Below the pieces are notes generated by a model, which was not told where the DNA came from, made no database searches, and saw only the letters and a list, made by a program, of their open reading frames with translations. From Mycobacterium branderi (GTDB taxonomy: Bacteria > Actinomycetota > Actinomycetes > Mycobacteriales > Mycobacteriaceae), in contig NZ_AP022606.1 of the NCBI RefSeq assembly GCF_010728725.1, positions 496,001-560,000 of the forward strand: a stretch of DNA of 64,000 nt, given 5' to 3'. Numbering within the stretch: position 1 is the stretch's first letter; the number at the start of each line of letters is the position of its first letter. Shown here piece by piece: positions 29,467 to 37,728 of this stretch. The translations under genes and the position numbers were made by a program.

Positions 29467-30098
29467 CTCATCCAGGCTGGGGTGATCGGCAAACCGTTGC
29501 GATGCCGGTATTCGGCGATCGCCTTCAGGTTGTTCAGCTCTAGCCCGTGACCCGCGCCGAAGAGGTCCCAGAAGTCGCCCACCCAGCCGGTGCGACCCGC
29601 CGGTGCGGCCTCGGGATACGGGTTGTGGTCGTAGAACGGGTGGCGGCAATTGGTCCACAGCACAACGGAACCCGGCTTGTTCAGCACCACCTGCGCGTCG
29701 AGGACCCGCATCACGTAGATCATCCACAGATGCTTGCCCTGATCCCACGCGCAGTGGTAGTCGACGGTGCGCGCCTCGGAGTTGGCATACGTGCGGGTGT
29801 AGATCTTGGTGTCGGGAAGCAGTCGGTCGTAGGCCTCCCACAGGCCCGGCTCCTCGGTGGGAGTGAAGCCGCGCAGGGTGTAGGTCCACTCCTCGAGGCT
29901 GCGGGTGTCGGATAAGTACTCGAACAGCTCGTCCGCTGGGCAGTCGACGTAGTCGTTGACCGTGCAGTACTGGCCGAACACCTCGTCGTGCGGGTACACC
30001 GAGCGCATCTTGGCCATGAACATCGGCGCGGTTTCTTCCAGCGGCGAGGTCTCGATGCGGACCACCCCGTCGATATCGTCAAGCGCTGGCAGGGACAT
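29463..30098 (-). CDS. SRPBCC (START/polyketide-cyclase-fold) protein
   Basis: A 211-residue protein whose central part (DYVDCPADELFEYLSDTRSLEEW) is the opening of an SRPBCC domain, a hydrophobic-pocket fold used by cyclases, aromatases and lipid carriers. I chose ATG 30098 because a strong GGAGG site precedes it; this gives a 20-bp overlap with the upstream TPP gene. In this operon it probably binds or cyclises the intermediate made by its neighbours. Exact reaction unknown. Confidence 0.75.
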   Translation of the reverse strand: MSLPALDDIDGVVRIETSPLEETAPMFMAKMRSVYPHDEVFGQYCTVNDYVDCPADELFEYLSDTRSLEEWTYTLRGFTPTEEPGLWEAYDRLLPDTKIYTRTYANSEARTVDYHCAWDQGKHLWMIYVMRVLDAQVVLNKPGSVVLWTNCRHPFYDHNPYPEAAPAGRTGWVGDFWDLFGAGHGLELNNLKAIAEYRHRNGLPITPAWMR

Positions 30099-31785
30099 GG
30101 GTTCGGTCCTCCTCATGGTTCGTAATACGTTGTCGACCAATCTGATTCAGGAACGCCGCGAAAGGCGGGATCTCGTCGGCCGAGCATGCGACGCTGACTA
30201 CTGATGGCCCGTCGACGTCCATCGCGTGCTGGATCGCCGCGGGTAACGCGTCGAGGTCGGCGACGTCGACCGAGGACAACCCGGGGAACATGGCCGCCAG
30301 CCCGGCGCCGAGATTGCTGGGGCTGAACCGGTTGTAGCTGTAGAGGTCGTCGTAGAAGAGCTGCTCGCGGGTGACGCACATGGCGTGGGCGTTGTTGTTG
30401 AACAACACGAACGTCACCGGCAGCCGGTATTGCACCGCGGTGTGCACCTCCATGCCGTGCATGAAAAACGCTCCGTCTCCGGCGATGACGACGGTGCGCC
30501 GGGCCCGGCCGAACGCCATCCCGATACCGGCACCGAAGCTGTAACCCATCCCGCCCATGCCGAGCGCGACGGCGAATCGGCCGCCGCGCCGCACCGGCAG
30601 GTAGTGGATTGCGGCCGCTCCGGTGTTGCCGGCGTCGACCACGATGTCGGCGCCGGCGGGCAGCGCAGCGTCCAGCACCGCCATAGCGTCGCGGTAGCGC
30701 ACACCCGGACCGTCGACGGCCGGGGGCCGCAGTTCGGTACGCGCCACGACGTCGGGCACCCGCAGGCCGGTGGGCCTCCCGCCGCCGGACAACTCCCGGG
30801 TCAGCATGCTCAGCGACAGGCGCACGTCGTCGGTATGCACGTGCGTGCACGGCAGGTACGGCGGCGCCGAGCCGATCGAGATCGTTCGCGTCGCCGCCAG
30901 CGCGTCGTCGAGGCCGGCGCGCGCGGTCACCGACAGCCGGGTGCCCACCACCAGGCACAACGCGCTGCCCGCCACCGCCTCGGCCACGCCGGGATGACCC
31001 ATCACGCCGGTGAGTCCGAGCGCCGACGACGATCCGAAACCCGGTGTACCGGCAACGTCCTTGGCATCGGGCACGCACGCCACCCGGGCACGCAACAGGG
31101 CGCGCAGCTCCTCGAGCTCTCGGCGAGCGTCATCGCGGGCCACCTGCTCGCCGGCGACGATCGTGACCGGTCCGTTGGCGCGGCGCAGGGCACGCACAAT
31201 CGGATGCAGGTCGCCGATCCGCGGCGCCGCAGCCTCGAGTTCGTAGCCATTGGCGGCGACGAGTCCTTGCTGAATGTCCTTGGGCAGCAACAACACCGCC
31301 GGACCCCCGGTTCGCGCGGCGGCGACTGCGGCAGGCAGGGCCGACGCGATGTCGCCGGGTGCCATTACCCGTCGGCAGAACACCGATACCGCGGAAAACA
31401 ACGCCTCGGCGTTCAGCGAACCGTTGCGGCCGCTGGTGTCCTGAAAACTGCCACGGCCGTCCATCGTCGTCGCAGGCTGACCCGCCAGCGCCAACACCGG
31501 CACCCGGCTGGCGAACGATTCCCCCAGTCCCGGAACGAGATTCAGCGCACCTCCGCCCGATGTCGCCGCCACCACGCCTAATCGGGCGCCGCCGCGGCTG
31601 TAACCGTCGGCCATCGCCGCGGCGGAGAATTCGTGCTTGGCCAGCACAGCGGTGACGTCGGAGCGGAAATGCGCTGCATCGTAAAGGTCTTCGATGTTGG
31701 CGCCGTCGACACCGAAGATGTAGTCGACTCCGATCCGCGCGAGATATTCGACGATGTGGTCGACCACCCGGTGTTGCCTGGCCAT
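30079..31785 (-). CDS. Thiamine-pyrophosphate enzyme of acetolactate-synthase type
   Basis: A 568-residue TPP enzyme with N-terminal PYR domain (Glu52 in KHEFSAAAMADG), a middle domain and C-terminal PP domain with the Mg/TPP motif GDGAFFM followed by FNNNAHAM. It should form or break carbon-carbon bonds at 2-oxo acids. No small regulatory subunit is nearby, so it is probably not a housekeeping IlvB. First gene of an operon starting from a SigL-type promoter at 31792-31819, whose -10 is six bases from the ATG, so the mRNA is probably leaderless. Confidence 0.86.
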   Translation of the reverse strand: MARQHRVVDHIVEYLARIGVDYIFGVDGANIEDLYDAAHFRSDVTAVLAKHEFSAAAMADGYSRGGARLGVVAATSGGGALNLVPGLGESFASRVPVLALAGQPATTMDGRGSFQDTSGRNGSLNAEALFSAVSVFCRRVMAPGDIASALPAAVAAARTGGPAVLLLPKDIQQGLVAANGYELEAAAPRIGDLHPIVRALRRANGPVTIVAGEQVARDDARRELEELRALLRARVACVPDAKDVAGTPGFGSSSALGLTGVMGHPGVAEAVAGSALCLVVGTRLSVTARAGLDDALAATRTISIGSAPPYLPCTHVHTDDVRLSLSMLTRELSGGGRPTGLRVPDVVARTELRPPAVDGPGVRYRDAMAVLDAALPAGADIVVDAGNTGAAAIHYLPVRRGGRFAVALGMGGMGYSFGAGIGMAFGRARRTVVIAGDGAFFMHGMEVHTAVQYRLPVTFVLFNNNAHAMCVTREQLFYDDLYSYNRFSPSNLGAGLAAMFPGLSSVDVADLDALPAAIQHAMDVDGPSVVSVACSADEIPPFAAFLNQIGRQRITNHEEDRTHVPASA

Positions 31786-31791
31786 ACCGGT

Positions 31792-31819
31792 AATACGACT
31801 GCCGGGTGGCCTTGGTTCA
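31792..31819 (-). promoter_or_regulatory. SigL-type promoter of the TPP-ketosynthase operon
   Basis: Read on the minus strand: TGAACC at 31819-31814, a 16-base spacer, and CGTATT at 31797-31792. This fits the SigL promoter type reported for M. tuberculosis (TGAACC, about 16-18 bases, CGT). The ATG of the TPP gene begins six bases after the -10, so the transcript should start at or next to the ATG. It lies in the short gap after rslA. Confidence 0.75.
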
Positions 31820-31833
31820 CCCTGGCGCGGAAT

Positions 31834-32607
31834 TTACAGCGAACGCTCCAGCAACACGTTGCCGTTGTCGGCGGAAACCACTTGCACCGCGGCGATTTGG
31901 TCGACAGGCGTGGAAATACTTCCGGCGGGCGTCGCCGTGTGGCCGGGTTCGGCCACCCAGGTGGCCAGCCGAGTGCGACTGCCGTCCCGGCCCACCACCA
32001 CCATCGCCAACCGGTCGTGGTGGGCGTACACCGGCGCCAGGCAAACGCATTTCATGTCGATATAGGTTCCCCAGTTCTGGCCGCTGACCGACACGGTCGA
32101 TGCCAGCGCTTTGGTCCCTACCTGCGCCATCTCCAGCGTCGACGCGCTCGGCTGGGGCGCGGCGGGGGCGCTTGCCTGCGGCGGCGCGGGCACAACGGCC
32201 GGGGAGTGCGGCTTGACGCCGACGAACACGCCGATCGCCAGCACCGCGGCCGCTGCGCCCGAGGCTGTCCACGTGATCACACGGGAGCGACGCCGCCGCC
32301 AGGCCACCTTGGCCAGCAGTGACGGCAGCATCTCGGGAGGCACGGATGCATCGCCGGTGTGGTCCGCCGCCTCGATCGCGGCCACCACGTTGTCGTCGAG
32401 CCGCGAGAGCAGGGCCGGCATGCCACTGAGTTCGGCGACAGCGCTGCGACACGACGCGCAGCCACGCAGGTGCGCCTCGAATTCCTGCCGGTCGGCGTCC
32501 GACAGCGAACCCAGCACGTAGGCGGCGTCCCACATCGCGTACTCGTGGTCGTCGCCCGGGGCTCGCCCACCGTCACCGGTTGGGCCGGCGCCCCATCGAG
32601 TAATCAT
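31834..32607 (-). CDS. rslA: Anti-sigma-L factor RslA
   Basis: Membrane anti-sigma factor of 257 residues that holds SigL inactive. The N-terminal zinc anti-sigma domain has HLRGCASC (H-x3-C-x2-C). One transmembrane helix lies near residues 110-130, followed by a Pro/Ala-rich stretch and a C-terminal external domain with CVCLAP Cys pair. It matches M. tuberculosis RslA (Rv0736) over most of its length. ATGA overlap with sigL; release of zinc on oxidation is the known trigger for the family member. Confidence 0.94.
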   Translation of the reverse strand: MITRWGAGPTGDGGRAPGDDHEYAMWDAAYVLGSLSDADRQEFEAHLRGCASCRSAVAELSGMPALLSRLDDNVVAAIEAADHTGDASVPPEMLPSLLAKVAWRRRRSRVITWTASGAAAAVLAIGVFVGVKPHSPAVVPAPPQASAPAAPQPSASTLEMAQVGTKALASTVSVSGQNWGTYIDMKCVCLAPVYAHHDRLAMVVVGRDGSRTRLATWVAEPGHTATPAGSISTPVDQIAAVQVVSADNGNVLLERSL

Positions 32608-33161: not shown

Positions 33162-33189
33162 TACACGAATCAAACGCCTGTTTCGTTCA
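33162..33189 (-). promoter_or_regulatory. SigL-type autoregulatory promoter of sigL-rslA
   Basis: Minus strand: TGAACG at 33189-33184, 16-base spacer, CGTGTA at 33167-33162, then an 18-base stretch to the sigL ATG. It overlaps the last codons of the carotenoid oxygenase fusion gene. The -10 matches the reported CGTGTR form. The spacer shares GGCGTTTGA with the spacer upstream of the truncated sigL copy. Confidence 0.78.
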
Positions 33190-34825
33190 CGTGGCTAACC
33201 TCTGCTGCGTCGGTGATCCAGTTGCCGTGGAAGCCGTGCGGCACCCGCCGCGGCATCCGCACGCGGGCAACCGGTTCCCCACCGAAATCCGACGCGTCGA
33301 GGATCACCAGATCGCTGCCGTCGCGAACCGGGTCGTACACGTAGCTCAGGTACCAGCCCGCCGACTCGTCCGACTGTTCGCCCGCGGGCACGAACACCGC
33401 CTCATCGGCAGTGCCGCGACTGCCGAACCGGTGTTCTTCGGCCGTATCGCGTAAGAGGTCGTAGCGCACCAGGCAGTTGGTGCCGACCGCGACGGAGTAG
33501 CGAGCCGGCCGGCCGGTTCGCCTGTCGTCGATCCGGGGGAACTCGATGGCGCGGTCGTCGAGTTGTTGCTCGTCGACCTTGCCGGCGTCGGTGTCGATGG
33601 TCCATTGCCACAGTGCCGCGCCAGTGTCGAACACACTGTCCTCTCGCCACAATTCTGGGTAGCGAACCACCTGCAGCACAATGGAATTGACACTGTCGTA
33701 CGCATTGGCAAGGTGGAAGACGTAGCACGGGTCGACGTCGAACCAGCGCACCGCGCCGTACGGGTCGTCGCGGCGCAGCACACCGAGACGCGCGCCGTAG
33801 GAGTCGTCCCACCGGTAGGGCACGTCCTGATCGGCTTGCATGGTCAAGGCAACGCCCAGGTCGAATACCAGTGGCAGGTCGAAGAACACGACATGTTCGG
33901 CGGTCAACGCGAAGTCGTGCATCAGCGTGAGCGCCGGGACGTCGACGGGGCGGCTGATGGTCAGCTCGCCGTCGGCATTCGCCCGGTGGTAGGTGACGTG
34001 CGGGGCGAAGATGCCGCCGTAGCCGAAGAAGTGCAACTCGCCGGTATCCGGGCAGATCTTCGGGTGTGCCGTCATCGCGTCAGCCAGCTTGCCGCCGAAG
34101 TCGTAGGCGCCCAACGTTTTCAGATCGTTGGTGATCTCGTACGGCAGCGACGTCTCCATCAGCGCCAGCGTTTTGCCCGCGTGCCGGACGACGTGGGTGT
34201 TGGCGACGCTGGAGCGCAGGTTGCGGGTGCCGTCGGCGTTGTATGTCGGGAACGGATCGGCGAAGCTCTCGGTGCGCACCCAGCGGTTGCGGTACCACGC
34301 GACACGGCCGTTCTCGAGCCGCACCCCGTGCACCATGCCGTCGCCGACGCACCAATGTCCCTGGGCCTCGCGCGGGTTCGGGCCGTTCCGCAGGTACCAA
34401 CCATTGAGCTCGCTGGGAATGTGTCCCTCGACCGGGAGATCCAGGACGGTCAGCTCGTCGGGCACCGGCGCATAGTTCGCGGTGCGAAAGACCGGGAACA
34501 CAGTCTGCTCCGGCACGGCGTTGGCCGCCGACCGGCTTGCGGGCGTGCCGACCTTGTCGAGCACAAGCAGGGGCGCAGCATGTGCAGGTTGCTCGTCGAG
34601 CGCGGCCACCTCGTCGGGAGAGAGCAGGGCCAGCAGAGCCGGCATGTCGGCCAGTTCGTCAACGGCCTGCCGGCATGACGCGCAGGCACCCAGATGCGTC
34701 TCGAATTCCCGCCGCTCGGCTGCCGACAGCGACCCCAGCACGTAAGCCGCGTCCCACGTCGCATAGTCATGGCCGCCGTAGGGTTCACCGTTGTGGGCCA
34801 TGCCGTGGCCGTGTGCGCGCGTCAT
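33170..34825 (-). CDS. Anti-sigma zinc domain fused to carotenoid cleavage oxygenase
   Basis: A 551-residue fusion in one uninterrupted frame. Residues about 18-75 are an RslA-like anti-sigma domain (WDAAYVLGSLS, then His44, Cys48, Cys51). Residues about 118-545 are a full carotenoid oxygenase (RPE65/CCD family) with all four iron-ligand His: 254 (TAHPK), 303 (MHDFALT), 371 (FHLANAYD) and 533 (FHGNWI). There is no membrane helix, unlike RslA. The start overlaps the truncated sigma gene as ATGA, as rslA overlaps sigL. The enzyme could cleave a carotenoid or apocarotenoid, or sense one, and release a sigma domain; the link is inference. Confidence 0.88.
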   Translation of the reverse strand: MTRAHGHGMAHNGEPYGGHDYATWDAAYVLGSLSAAERREFETHLGACASCRQAVDELADMPALLALLSPDEVAALDEQPAHAAPLLVLDKVGTPASRSAANAVPEQTVFPVFRTANYAPVPDELTVLDLPVEGHIPSELNGWYLRNGPNPREAQGHWCVGDGMVHGVRLENGRVAWYRNRWVRTESFADPFPTYNADGTRNLRSSVANTHVVRHAGKTLALMETSLPYEITNDLKTLGAYDFGGKLADAMTAHPKICPDTGELHFFGYGGIFAPHVTYHRANADGELTISRPVDVPALTLMHDFALTAEHVVFFDLPLVFDLGVALTMQADQDVPYRWDDSYGARLGVLRRDDPYGAVRWFDVDPCYVFHLANAYDSVNSIVLQVVRYPELWREDSVFDTGAALWQWTIDTDAGKVDEQQLDDRAIEFPRIDDRRTGRPARYSVAVGTNCLVRYDLLRDTAEEHRFGSRGTADEAVFVPAGEQSDESAGWYLSYVYDPVRDGSDLVILDASDFGGEPVARVRMPRRVPHGFHGNWITDAAEVSHVNETGV

Positions 34826-35052
34826 GGCGTCACCCCCATCTCCCTCAACGTCTGTCGCAAGGCGCGCAACGCATAGTGCAGCCACGACTTCGCGGTTCCC
34901 TCTGGGATCCCCAGCTCGGCCGCGATTTGCCCGATAGGCAGCCCCTGGTAGTAGGCGCGGTGGACCACCGCGCGATGTTCGGGGGACAACCGCGCCATCG
35001 CATCGGCCATCAGCGCCCGGTCCAGCCCGGCATCGGCTTCGGGAATATCCAT
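34822..35052 (-). CDS. Sigma region 4-only protein, truncated sigL paralogue
   Basis: A 76-residue protein that aligns with the last 75 residues of SigL only: SPEHRAVV, then IGQIAAELGIPEGTAKSWLHYALRALR as the -35-binding helix-turn-helix. Region 2 is missing and only 75 bp separate it from the next gene upstream, so this is a deletion, not a missed frameshift. ATG 35052 has an AGG site. Since RslA contacts SigL region 4, this piece could bind the fused anti-sigma domain or act as a decoy. It may also be a decaying remnant. Confidence 0.75.
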   Translation of the reverse strand: MDIPEADAGLDRALMADAMARLSPEHRAVVHRAYYQGLPIGQIAAELGIPEGTAKSWLHYALRALRQTLREMGVTP

Positions 35053-35069: not shown

Positions 35070-35097
35070 AATACGACTCAAACGCCCATCTGGTTCA
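35070..35097 (-). promoter_or_regulatory. SigL-type promoter of the sigma4 / anti-sigma-oxygenase pair
   Basis: Minus strand: TGAACC at 35097-35092, 16-base spacer, CGTATT at 35075-35070, with the ATG 17 bases further. The whole 5' region resembles that of sigL (including GGGCTGGTGATGGA versus GAGGCTGGTGATGGA), showing that the promoter was copied along with the gene. Confidence 0.78.
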
Positions 35098-35130: not shown

Positions 35131-36507
35131 TCACCGCCACGATGTGTGTTCCCAGTGTGGACCCGATGGAGTTTGGGCGCCAGACATCCAGCTGTGGAAT
35201 CGGCCGTCGGGGTCGTAGGCCGCGCGCACCTGGTCCAGCCGTGCCATGGTGGATTCGGTGACGAATCGCGCCGGTCGCCGGCACAAGTTCTCGTCGGCGA
35301 GCGAGATGCCGGTCGACAGATGCGACATCGCCGCCATGTTCGACGCGGCCCAGTCCCGGTACCGTTCGTCGTCGGCCGGATCCCGCCAGATGGTGTAGAG
35401 CGCCAGGTAGATTTGGTCCTCCAGGCCGTACACCTCGTCGTCGCGTTCCGGGGACGTGTTCCACCCGGTGAAGATGAAATGCGACGGGTGCGGTGGCATG
35501 GTTTCGATGATTTTGCGGATGCCGGGCAGTAGTTCCTCGGCCGAAGCCGACGTGAACATGCTGTCGGCGATATAGCGGTAACCCTTGGGATAACTGGCCA
35601 TCACGGCGCCATACCAGTTGGCCAAGGTGGTGGGCGCGTACGGCAGGTTGACGATCGCCTTGTCGATGACAGGGCAAGTCCCCAGCGGCGCAAGGGCTTT
35701 GACAGCTTCCTCTTCGGACTTGGCGAACACGGGTGAGGCGATCGTGATGCCGGGCTCGTCCCGCCCGGCCGCCGGAAGGCTACGCGCGGTGTGGATCTGC
35801 AGTTCGACGCTGGCGTCGATCTCGCAGCGGACAGCACGTCCCCAGCTGAAGACCTCGTCGGCGACGTCGATCGGGTACATGTACAGGCAGGTGCCCCAGA
35901 CCGGCGGGCGCGGGTAAAGCCGCAACCTGAAAGAGGTGACCACGCCGAAGAAGCCCGGACCCGACCCGCGGGCCGCCCAGTACAGGTCGGGGTGGTTCTC
36001 CGGGTCGCAGTAAACCTGGTCACCGTCGGCGGTGACGACCTGCAGCCCGAGCACGCTCTCGCAGGCCGGCCCGAGCGCCGGGCTGTTCCAGCCGTATCCG
36101 CCCTGCAGGAGATAGCCGCCGAGGCAGATGCCTTCACAGTGGCCGGCCGGGAAGAAAAGCCCCTGCGCATCCAGTTCGGCGGCGAAGACGCTGGCGACCT
36201 TGCCCGGCCCGACGTCGGCGGTCATCCGATCCGGGTCGACGCTGCAGTGATCGAGGCGGCTGACGTCGAGCAGCACGCCGCCGTCACGGAGGTGGCTGGC
36301 GGTCCAGCTGTGTCCGCCGGACCGTACGCCGACGCGATGCCCGTTCGCGCGCGCATAGCGTAGGGCTGCCACTACGTCGTCGGTGTCGTGCGCCTGCACG
36401 ATCACATCGGGAAAGCGGTCGGGCACCAAACCATTCCATACCGTTGCGCGGCGAGCTGCCTCATACCCGTCGGAGCCGCGACAGAAGACCTTGTCGGCGG
36501 ATATCAT
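35131..36507 (-). CDS. Berberine-bridge-type FAD-linked oxidase
   Basis: A 458-residue VAO/PCMH-family flavoenzyme with a C-terminal BBE segment. FAD is probably bound twice covalently: His66 in RSGGHSW and Cys124 in GHCEGICLGG. Such enzymes oxidise or cyclise alcohols, sugars and natural-product intermediates. No secretion signal is obvious. It follows the flavin monooxygenase with an ATGA overlap, and both are transcribed from the SigL-type promoter at 37701-37728. Confidence 0.85.
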   Translation of the reverse strand: MISADKVFCRGSDGYEAARRATVWNGLVPDRFPDVIVQAHDTDDVVAALRYARANGHRVGVRSGGHSWTASHLRDGGVLLDVSRLDHCSVDPDRMTADVGPGKVASVFAAELDAQGLFFPAGHCEGICLGGYLLQGGYGWNSPALGPACESVLGLQVVTADGDQVYCDPENHPDLYWAARGSGPGFFGVVTSFRLRLYPRPPVWGTCLYMYPIDVADEVFSWGRAVRCEIDASVELQIHTARSLPAAGRDEPGITIASPVFAKSEEEAVKALAPLGTCPVIDKAIVNLPYAPTTLANWYGAVMASYPKGYRYIADSMFTSASAEELLPGIRKIIETMPPHPSHFIFTGWNTSPERDDEVYGLEDQIYLALYTIWRDPADDERYRDWAASNMAAMSHLSTGISLADENLCRRPARFVTESTMARLDQVRAAYDPDGRFHSWMSGAQTPSGPHWEHTSWR

Positions 36508-37694
36508 TGCAGCACCTCGCTTTTAGCCCGCCGCGGCGCCGTTGAAAGATAGGCCGCGACTTGGCTCGCCAGCGGCGTCGCAGCGAGCCGAATGGCCCGC
36601 AGTGGGCCATTGGGCGGGATGCCGTATCCGATGGCGAACATTCCGTCGGCGAGGTGCGAGGCAAAGCCGCCGCGCGGGTTGCCGCGCTCGTCGAGTACGC
36701 CCAGGTGGCCGACCAGACCGTGAAGGTCGGTGCGAAACCCGGTGGCAGCGATGATCGTCTGCGGCGTTACCGATGTGCCGTCGGTCAGGATCACACGGTC
36801 GGATTCGATCGCCTTGACGGCGGCCACGACGGCCACGTGCCCGGCTCGCACAGTGTCGACGAGCTCGTCGGCCAGCGTGGGGATCCGGCCGCGCGTTTCC
36901 ACCGTCGCCTTCAGTCCGAGCGGCGGCCGGCCAAAACCGCAGGCCGCCAGGTCTTTCCACATCAGGCGGTTGAGCCGCCCGATCACCGGGTCGACCAGCC
37001 GCGCCGGGACCCGCGCAAACAGTTCGAGGAAGATGTCCGACGGAACCGGCCCGATGGCCCGCCGCACCAGGTGCGGCGGGGTACGTATCGCAAGCCAGAT
37101 CCGACGGGCGCCGGCGGTGGCGAGTTGGACGGCGATGTCGGCGCCCGAATTGCCGGCGCCGACAACCAGGACGTCGCGACCGCGGTAGGGCCAGGCATTG
37201 GTGAAGTTCCCGGAGTGCACGAGCTCGCCCGTGAAGCCACTCAACCCGGGCCAGGGCGGGACGGTAGGTGCGCTGTAGTTTCCGGTGGCGAGAACGACTG
37301 CCGCGGTTCGGATTTCACCCGACGACGTGTCCAGGTGCCACGCTCCCCCGGCCCGGTCGATGCGACGGACGTCGCACCCGAGCCGCAGCGCGATGTTTTG
37401 CTGCGCAGCGTAGTGGTCGAAATAGCGGACCATGTCCTCTTTGGTCGGCCAGCGGCCGGCGTTCAGCGGAATCCGTTGCCCGGGAAGATGCGACAAGAAT
37501 CCGTTGGTGTTGAGCCGGAAGTTGTCATAGCGCCTGCGCCATGAAATCGCCGGCGCCGCCGCTCGATCGAGGACGAGCGCCGTGACGCCGTGCCGATGGC
37601 CGAGTTGGCGCGCCACCGCCAGGCCGGCGGGCCCCGCCCCGACGACCACAGCCTCAGGTTCGTCGTCACTGGGCAGGCGAGGACCTCGGGTCAC
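36504..37694 (-). CDS. FMO-type flavin monooxygenase
   Basis: Single-component class B monooxygenase of 396 residues. The FAD motif VVGAGPAGLA is near residue 17 and the NADPH motif VVGAGNSGAD near residue 173; the second part has VILTDGTSVT and IIAATGFRTDL. The start is GTG 37694, six bases after the -10 of a SigL-type promoter, so the mRNA is probably leaderless. It should oxygenate a C, N or S centre of a cluster intermediate. Coupled by ATGA to the BBE-type oxidase. Confidence 0.85.
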   Translation of the reverse strand: MTRGPRLPSDDEPEAVVVGAGPAGLAVARQLGHRHGVTALVLDRAAAPAISWRRRYDNFRLNTNGFLSHLPGQRIPLNAGRWPTKEDMVRYFDHYAAQQNIALRLGCDVRRIDRAGGAWHLDTSSGEIRTAAVVLATGNYSAPTVPPWPGLSGFTGELVHSGNFTNAWPYRGRDVLVVGAGNSGADIAVQLATAGARRIWLAIRTPPHLVRRAIGPVPSDIFLELFARVPARLVDPVIGRLNRLMWKDLAACGFGRPPLGLKATVETRGRIPTLADELVDTVRAGHVAVVAAVKAIESDRVILTDGTSVTPQTIIAATGFRTDLHGLVGHLGVLDERGNPRGGFASHLADGMFAIGYGIPPNGPLRAIRLAATPLASQVAAYLSTAPRRAKSEVLQ

Positions 37695-37700
37695 AGCAGT

Positions 37701-37728
37701 AATACGAGCCGCGACCGATGATGGTTCA
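37701..37728 (-). promoter_or_regulatory. SigL-type promoter of the monooxygenase-oxidase operon
   Basis: Minus strand: TGAACC at 37728-37723, 16-base spacer, CGTATT at 37706-37701. The GTG of the monooxygenase begins six bases after the -10, the same spacing as at the TPP operon. The site sits in the short gap between mapA and the monooxygenase. Confidence 0.76.

Follow-up and report, generated by a model that had tools for sequence, protein, structure and literature searches.

We analysed a 64,000-nucleotide stretch of the Mycobacterium branderi genome (contig NZ_AP022606.1, positions 496,001 to 560,000; hereafter the window), which carries on its reverse strand a gene whose product joins a zinc-associated anti-sigma (ZAS) domain of the RslA type to a carotenoid cleavage dioxygenase (CCD). 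The fusion gene lies between two SigL-related genes: its ATG overlaps the stop codon of a short open reading frame (ORF) that encodes only region 4 of a SigL-like sigma factor, and just downstream of it are sigL, for an extracytoplasmic function (ECF) sigma factor, and rslA. The original prediction, made from the letters of this DNA, had described the fusion itself and mentioned neither the coupled region-4-only ORF, nor the SigL-type promoter-like sites, nor sigL-rslA just downstream. The central features, in the order in which they are read, are as follows.

35072..35097, minus strand: SigL-type promoter-like site TGAACC-N16-CGTA, 20 nt before the ATG of the region-4-only ORF
34822..35052, minus strand: region-4-only SigL-like ORF, 76 aa, its stop overlapping the fusion ATG by 4 bp (ATGA)
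33170..34825, minus strand: ZAS-CCD fusion gene, 551 aa, single open frame with an ATG start
33164..33189, minus strand: SigL-type site TGAACG-N16-CGTG before sigL, overlapping the last fusion codons
32604..33143, minus strand: intact ECF sigma factor SigL, 179 aa, with regions 2 and 4
31834..32607, minus strand: RslA, 257 aa, with a ZAS domain, a hydrophobic helix (residues 113-131) and a C-terminal domain

In the fusion protein, the ZAS domain spans residues ~17-70 and the CCD domain, of the RPE65 family, residues ~108-540, with a fast-evolving linker (~71-107) between them. Pfam places zf-HC2 at residues 27-52 (E 1.8e-6, above the cut-off) and RPE65 at residues 118-537 (E 2.6e-112), which bears out the single frame joining an anti-sigma zinc domain to a full CCD, and residues 18-80 align to the anti-sigma domain of RslA in 3HUG chain B (E 8.1e-20). 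The best PDB matches of the CCD domain are carotenoid 9,10-dioxygenases (E 5.5e-65); the NCBIfam model for 8'-apo-carotenoid 13,14-cleaving dioxygenase was matched below its cut-off (398 vs 675 bits), and PHROGs gave no match for the fusion. The membrane-spanning C-terminal half of an RslA-like protein is replaced here by the CCD domain, and the C-terminal domain, being RPE65, is not a cupin sensor domain of the ChrR type. As judged by a hydropathy scan, there is no membrane helix between ZAS and CCD. The original prediction had claimed this for the entire protein, and for the remainder the scan offers only its maximum, a 19-residue mean of 1.64 at residues 311-329 inside the CCD vs 1.85 for the RslA helix.

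Among 396 genomes from the genus, at least 29, that of M. branderi included, carry the full-length fusion, so that the same architecture, for which the original prediction had suggested a domain search, does recur; counts out of 29 below refer to these genomes. In all 29 it is a single frame of 511-577 aa without an internal stop. A frameshift or sequencing error that would make this two genes, named at the outset as what might overturn the fusion, was therefore rejected, and so was an accident specific to the window, as the fusion recurs both in these genomes and in a large protein database, where 26 of 33 matches to fusion residues 1-110 carry RPE65, four carry AAA and three carry neither. 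Among the named carriers are M. celatum, M. kyorinense, M. fragae and Mycolicibacter species. A sigma-binding type of module and an oxygen-using enzyme are genuinely paired here, and the pairing is conserved; we found no description of a ZAS-CCD (zf-HC2 and RPE65) fusion or of its region-2-less sigma partner in the open-licence literature searched; a study of M. kansasii carotenogenesis, met among the literature on anti-sigma factors and carotenoid oxygenases, is unrelated in the part that was available.

Many other genomes of the genus match the CCD part only, from about residue 112 of the query. These free mycobacterial CCDs are orthologous enzymes that differ in having no ZAS domain; the ten compared are 68.5-73.3% identical to the fusion over the CCD part. 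In trees with ten free CCDs (L037 and nine of 64 free-CCD loci), the fusions form one group with a support of 100/99, and of 100/98 in a second tree. No sigL, rslA or other gene of the fusion locus was found in the flanks of the 64 free-CCD loci (L054-L117; flanks of up to 10 kb, often shorter), and a free CCD beside sigL as the forerunner of the fusion was not seen there. Of 20 free-CCD loci whose neighbours were examined, 12 have a member of a PadR-like gene family near the CCD, adjoining it in six and one or two predicted genes off in six; Pfam identified one member as PadR. In one genome (G147, that of locus L020), the fusion occurs alongside a free CCD orthologue (72%), and since 7% contamination is listed for it, the second copy may be foreign.

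The residues expected to matter are kept in both halves. The zinc motif HxxxCxxC (H44, C48 and C51) and the four CCD histidines (H254, H303, H371 and H533), both pointed out originally, are present in 29 of 29 fusions; we take the four histidines to be the iron ligands from general knowledge of the CCD family, having positioned them through alignments. E428 and E475 are likewise found in all 29, and position 224 is E in 19, including the window, and D in 10; these three are presumably the second-shell acidic residues of the CCD. The ZAS domain closely matches the RslA of the same genome when the two are compared position by position, and the WDAAYVLG core and the zinc triad are invariant in the 29 fusions as well as in the 29 RslA proteins. 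H19, present in 25 of the 29 fusions, the window's among them, aligns with the fourth zinc ligand of RslA (His25, PMC2877774). Residue 67 is hydrophobic in every fusion (L in 28, M in one) and polar (Q, R, H or K) in every RslA of the same genomes. At its other end, the window's fusion extends 12 residues beyond the end of the 28 others, into the sigL promoter site (33170-33208).

The 76-aa ORF upstream of the fusion belongs to the SigL subfamily and matches Sigma70_r4 (E 1.6e-14) and chain A of 3HUG (3HUG_A; E 1.1e-24), with no Sigma70_r2 match. A sigL paralogue with the identical 4-bp ATGA overlap lies directly upstream of the fusion in 29 of 29 loci, and a sigL homologue lies downstream in 29 of 29. 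At a Pfam E value of 0.001, Sigma70_r4 is detected in all upstream paralogues and Sigma70_r2 in nine, so 20 of the 29, including the window's, have no detectable region 2, although two of these (L025 and L030) lie close to contig ends and cannot be counted as decisive. In 19 of the 20, the region-4 ORF is open and has an ATG. Among the nine region-2-bearing copies, seven look intact and two (L016 and L017) are, by eye, without the conserved stretch after 'VAR'. Region 2 appears eroded in the same way, again by eye, in M. fragae (L046), which is outside the 29 and has R160 replaced by Q, and three further loci (L047, L049 and L051) are region-4-only. In one of the loci (L035), the sigL downstream of the fusion has an in-frame stop, possibly a sequencing error, with the fragment and the fusion both open.

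Region 2 was lost at least twice. The region-4-only state, found in 23 rows, requires two changes according to the tree (2-2 in bootstraps). A single clade for these rows is rejected, its log-likelihood being 28.6 lower with an approximately unbiased (AU) p of 0.00102. The eroded rows (L016/L017 and M. fragae) add two more events, and the two region-4-only groups carry different N-terminal remnants. Of the 18 region-2-less loci where a promoter-like site is visible, 13 have their first start codon 42-47 nt past it and the other five 111-149 nt past it; in region-2-bearing copies the start codon lies 42-47 nt past the site in eight of nine, the ninth having no site in the range searched.

Selection on what is left was estimated as omega from ten non-overlapping pairs of region-2-less loci, with three pairs having an intact sigma for comparison. 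Region 4 of the region-2-less ORFs has an omega of 0.425 (bootstrap 95% 0.308-0.565, with none of 1000 replicates reaching 1), the linker of the same genes 0.770 (0.615-0.985), and region 4 in the window's own group alone 0.381 (0.192-0.774). Elsewhere, region 4 has an omega of 0.085 in the intact copies and of about 0.17-0.18 in SigL itself. The ZAS domain is at 0.262 in region-2-less and 0.268 in intact-sigma pairs, and the CCD at 0.177 and 0.195, respectively (0.165-0.195 overall). Purifying selection on the remaining region 4 has relaxed but is real: the constraint is relaxed because omega is above that of the intact copies and SigL, and it is not gone because omega stays below 1. The recognition helix shows where it has been relaxed. 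R160 is kept in 28 of 28 SigL, seven of seven intact and two of two eroded copies, and in only one of 20 region-2-less copies. In the window's group, three of the four copies have W at this position; the other group has Q or H there in all 16. S159 and R169 are lost in all 16 of this second group and kept in all four of the window's, while L161, H162, L165 and L172 are retained in 20 of 20. By analogy with E. coli sigma E, R160 or S159 presumably contacts DNA.

The promoter-like sites were located with what we take to be the SigL consensus; a published consensus was not found in the literature searched. In 26 of 29 loci the pattern TGAAC-N16/17-CGTR stands upstream of the sigma copy, the exceptions being L017, whose spacer is longer by one, and L025 and L030 at contig ends, and in 28 of 29 (all but L021) it stands upstream of sigL. 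Shuffling leads one to expect 0.2 of 29 loci. In 131 kb of each strand, the sense strand has 72 matches and the opposite strand one; the other 18 sense matches comprise 16 that lie ~1.3 kb past the fusion stop, which in the window is the start of a gene for a thiamine pyrophosphate (TPP)-dependent enzyme, and two inside the sigma copies of L035 and L036. From this consensus and the site before sigL, we infer that SigL uses these sites, and the fusion module sits in what looks like a SigL regulon.

A second family of fusions joins the RslA-type ZAS domain to an AAA_16 ATPase (~920 aa; P0014, P0028). It was found in five of 392 genomes, two of them among the 358 of high quality, and a protein search from its N-terminus returned 96 ZAS-AAA proteins among 108 matches. 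All five ZAS-AAA loci (L135-L139) have an upstream sigL paralogue with the ATGA overlap, a SigL-type site upstream of it and a retained region 4; two of the sigma copies (L135 and L139) are region 4 only, and three (L136, L137 and L138) have a deletion of 12-16 residues in region 2, the start of which is also unmatched in L138. In a short tree built on few columns, which left out L030 and, for SigL-RslA, L035, the canonical SigL-RslA pairs form one group (98/91) with both effector types outside it, and one clade of the CCD modules is not rejected (p 0.122). The CCD and AAA modules may both descend from one old duplicate.

In the RslA study, an affinity of about 20 nM is given for RslA-SigL, region 4 of the sigma factor (sigma4) binds RslA more tightly than region 2 does, the crystallised complex (3HUG) consists of sigma4 and RslA only, and RslA covers both the promoter-binding and the polymerase-binding faces of sigma4 (PMC2877774). 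The bare sigma4 and the ZAS domain encoded here have the same make-up as this crystal, and a sigma4/ZAS complex is predicted by analogy with the structure and by homology.

Of the explanations considered, we rank highest, still tentatively, that sigma4/ZAS-CCD is a feedback and competition device acting on SigL. The SigL-RslA pair would have been copied, and the copy, with a SigL-type promoter of its own, would have exchanged the membrane half of its anti-sigma factor for a CCD enzyme, resulting in a soluble anti-sigma enzyme able to hold region 4 of the sigma factor; the sigma copy would then, in several lineages including the window's, have lost region 2 and been kept only as the domain gripped by ZAS. 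Whenever SigL is active, the operon would make a 1:1 sigma4/ZAS-CCD complex. A free sigma4 fragment might compete with SigL for RslA as a sigma mimic, a role suggested by its homology to the RslA-bound domain, and free ZAS-CCD might bind SigL, with the balance shifted by the substrate or oxygen chemistry of the CCD or by zinc loss at CxxC. The competition with SigL is, like the signal and the substrate, something we infer. The original prediction had suggested that an apocarotenoid or oxygen-linked signal might control the release of a sigma domain: such a domain is indeed encoded next to the fusion and is the likely ZAS partner, but its release should not itself start transcription, because region 2 is absent and the recognition-helix Arg is replaced in the window's lineage. 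For the other role proposed there, recruitment of the enzyme to RNA polymerase, we found no support.

Several observations weigh against such a device. Region 4 of the region-2-less copies evolves about five times faster, by omega, than that of the intact copies, and close pairs span 0.24-0.69, with B31/33 and B21/26 reaching 0.55 and 0.69. The L030 copy lies close to the end of its contig and has only 47 codons left, with no usable start, and together with these rates this makes slow decay conceivable; M. fragae retains part of region 2 and has nevertheless lost R160; and the L035 sigL carries its stop while fragment and fusion stay open. The RslA-type fourth zinc His is absent or shifted in four of the 29 fusions. 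The ZAS-AAA family may share the duplication and erosion with the CCD module, the short tree leaving an independent origin unresolved, and direct contact of ZAS-CCD or of the fragment with SigL or RslA is hypothetical.

Next in rank, and somewhat unlikely in our view, is a structural adaptor, in which sigma4/ZAS merely folds, dimerises or places the CCD without an effect on SigL. This would account well for the loss of recognition-helix residues with the rest of region 4 and ZAS kept, for the constant strong selection on the CCD, for the same pairing with an unrelated AAA ATPase and for the open reading frames of L035 beside a stopped sigL; it does less well with an operon that is still under SigL-type sites beside sigL-rslA and with the persistence of intact sigma copies in seven of 29 loci. 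Those intact copies, together with the close match between the ZAS core and the same-genome RslA, would also suit a plain soluble anti-sigma factor that inhibits SigL, and the intact copy where present, with the fragment as a minor decoy, but this has no need for the repeated retention of region 4 alone coupled to the fusion, and we consider it unlikely. That the sigma copy is a decaying pseudogene remnant or a translation-coupling leader, with ZAS a passenger of the enzyme, seems improbable: the higher omega of the region-2-less copies (up to 0.69 in single close pairs) and the truncated L030 copy speak for it, whereas the pooled omega is clearly below 1 and below that of the linker, the region-4 ORF is open with an ATG in 19 of 20, and the zinc triad and WDAAYVLG core are invariant. 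Two-protein sigma factors such as SigO/RsoA of Bacillus are known, but a split sigma in which the fragment lends region 4 to a region-2 partner is hardly credible here, as the recognition-helix Arg is replaced in 19 of 20 copies and no region-2-only partner was noticed at the locus, the rest of the genome not having been searched for one.

In a broader view, conceivable if doubtful, sigma4 and ZAS form a reusable protein-protein module taken off transcription initiation and co-made under SigL with at least two effectors, CCD and AAA; the fragment would be a sigma mimic, and the effector would set its release from ZAS and thereby read enzyme chemistry out on SigL.

The sites extend to the neighbouring genes, which are listed here.

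37703..37728, minus strand: SigL-type site before the flavin monooxygenase-like gene
36504..37694, minus strand: flavin monooxygenase-like gene, first gene of a SigL-type unit
35131..36507, minus strand: FAD-linked (FAD_binding_4) oxidoreductase, second gene of the monooxygenase unit
31794..31819, minus strand: SigL-type site before the TPP-enzyme gene
30079..31785, minus strand: TPP-dependent enzyme, first gene of a SigL-type unit

Four units under four SigL-type sites can be drawn between 28441 and 37728 of the window (monooxygenase-FAD oxidase; sigma4-ZAS-CCD; sigL-rslA; TPP enzyme-unnamed protein-KAS III), and these possibly form a small SigL-controlled biosynthetic cluster. Among relatives, 11 of 13 loci have the site ahead of the TPP gene and 15 of 16 have it ahead of sigL; all six of six have it at the monooxygenase gene, where it lies 35-54 nt before the gene in four and overlaps the homology-inferred start in two. 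No strict match was found in the relatives' loci before the FAD-oxidase, unnamed-protein or KAS gene. In L043, L046 and L050, the monooxygenase and FAD-oxidase pair is inverted and lies on the other side of sigL-rslA, with the SigL-type site kept at the monooxygenase. With a stricter pattern, four of 14 matches in the M. branderi genome fall at the fusion locus, before the monooxygenase, sigma-copy, sigL and TPP genes. A genome-wide SigL regulon is not resolved by this pattern, which gives 14 matches vs 10 for a reversed control, and only the four-site cluster at the locus stands out. A looser pattern has six matches within the window, with shuffles averaging 1.83 and reaching six in one of 100. 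Of the other ten genomic sites, two were examined: one is ~100-130 bp ahead of an ORF that by eye resembles a cyclopropane-mycolate synthase, and the second falls within an ORF of the opposite strand that, again by eye, is mycosin-like.

As to what the enzyme might act on, the M. branderi genome has no match to phytoene synthase (PF00494, E 1e-10), and matches were found in six of 29 fusion genomes vs 270 of 367 others, counts that come from related and not independent genomes. A home-made carotenoid substrate is therefore unlikely, and so is a home-made version of the apocarotenoid signal that the original prediction had raised as one possibility. The substrate is more likely to be an imported or unrelated polyene, or something that the neighbouring genes make, than a C40 carotenoid of the cell's own. 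The same genome (G000) has several CCD paralogues despite lacking a phytoene synthase match.

A sigma factor without region 2 should be dead, and here the ZAS-gripped domain is kept after repeated loss of region 2, coupled to an enzyme-bearing ZAS. If the pair works, it would be an example of a transcription switch becoming an enzyme partner or a sigma mimic, and the natural series from intact through eroded to region-4-only copies allows each step to be tested. For SigL, it raises the question of what a carotenoid-type oxygenase in its likely regulon reports or controls.

Among known systems, SigL-RslA is the likely parent of the fusion module, to judge from the shared ZAS domain with its WDAAYVLG core and HxxxCxxC motif and from a region 4 that is homologous over its full length. 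The two differ in that RslA has a membrane helix and a C-terminal domain where the fusion has the CCD, and in that SigL has region 2, which is gone from the window's copy. The sigma factor of ChrR in Rhodobacter sphaeroides is, to our knowledge, intact and without a region-4-only partner. In its anti-sigma architecture, ChrR is nonetheless the nearest known protein, being described as a ZAS domain with a cupin that senses singlet oxygen (PMC2877774), and it differs in having a cupin and not a CCD. The PhyR-NepR-EcfG system, as described in the literature, offers a parallel in that an anti-sigma factor is bound there by a sigma-like domain that does not itself function as a sigma factor; in PhyR this domain is carried on a response regulator, whereas here a bare region 4 is coupled to an anti-sigma-type enzyme.
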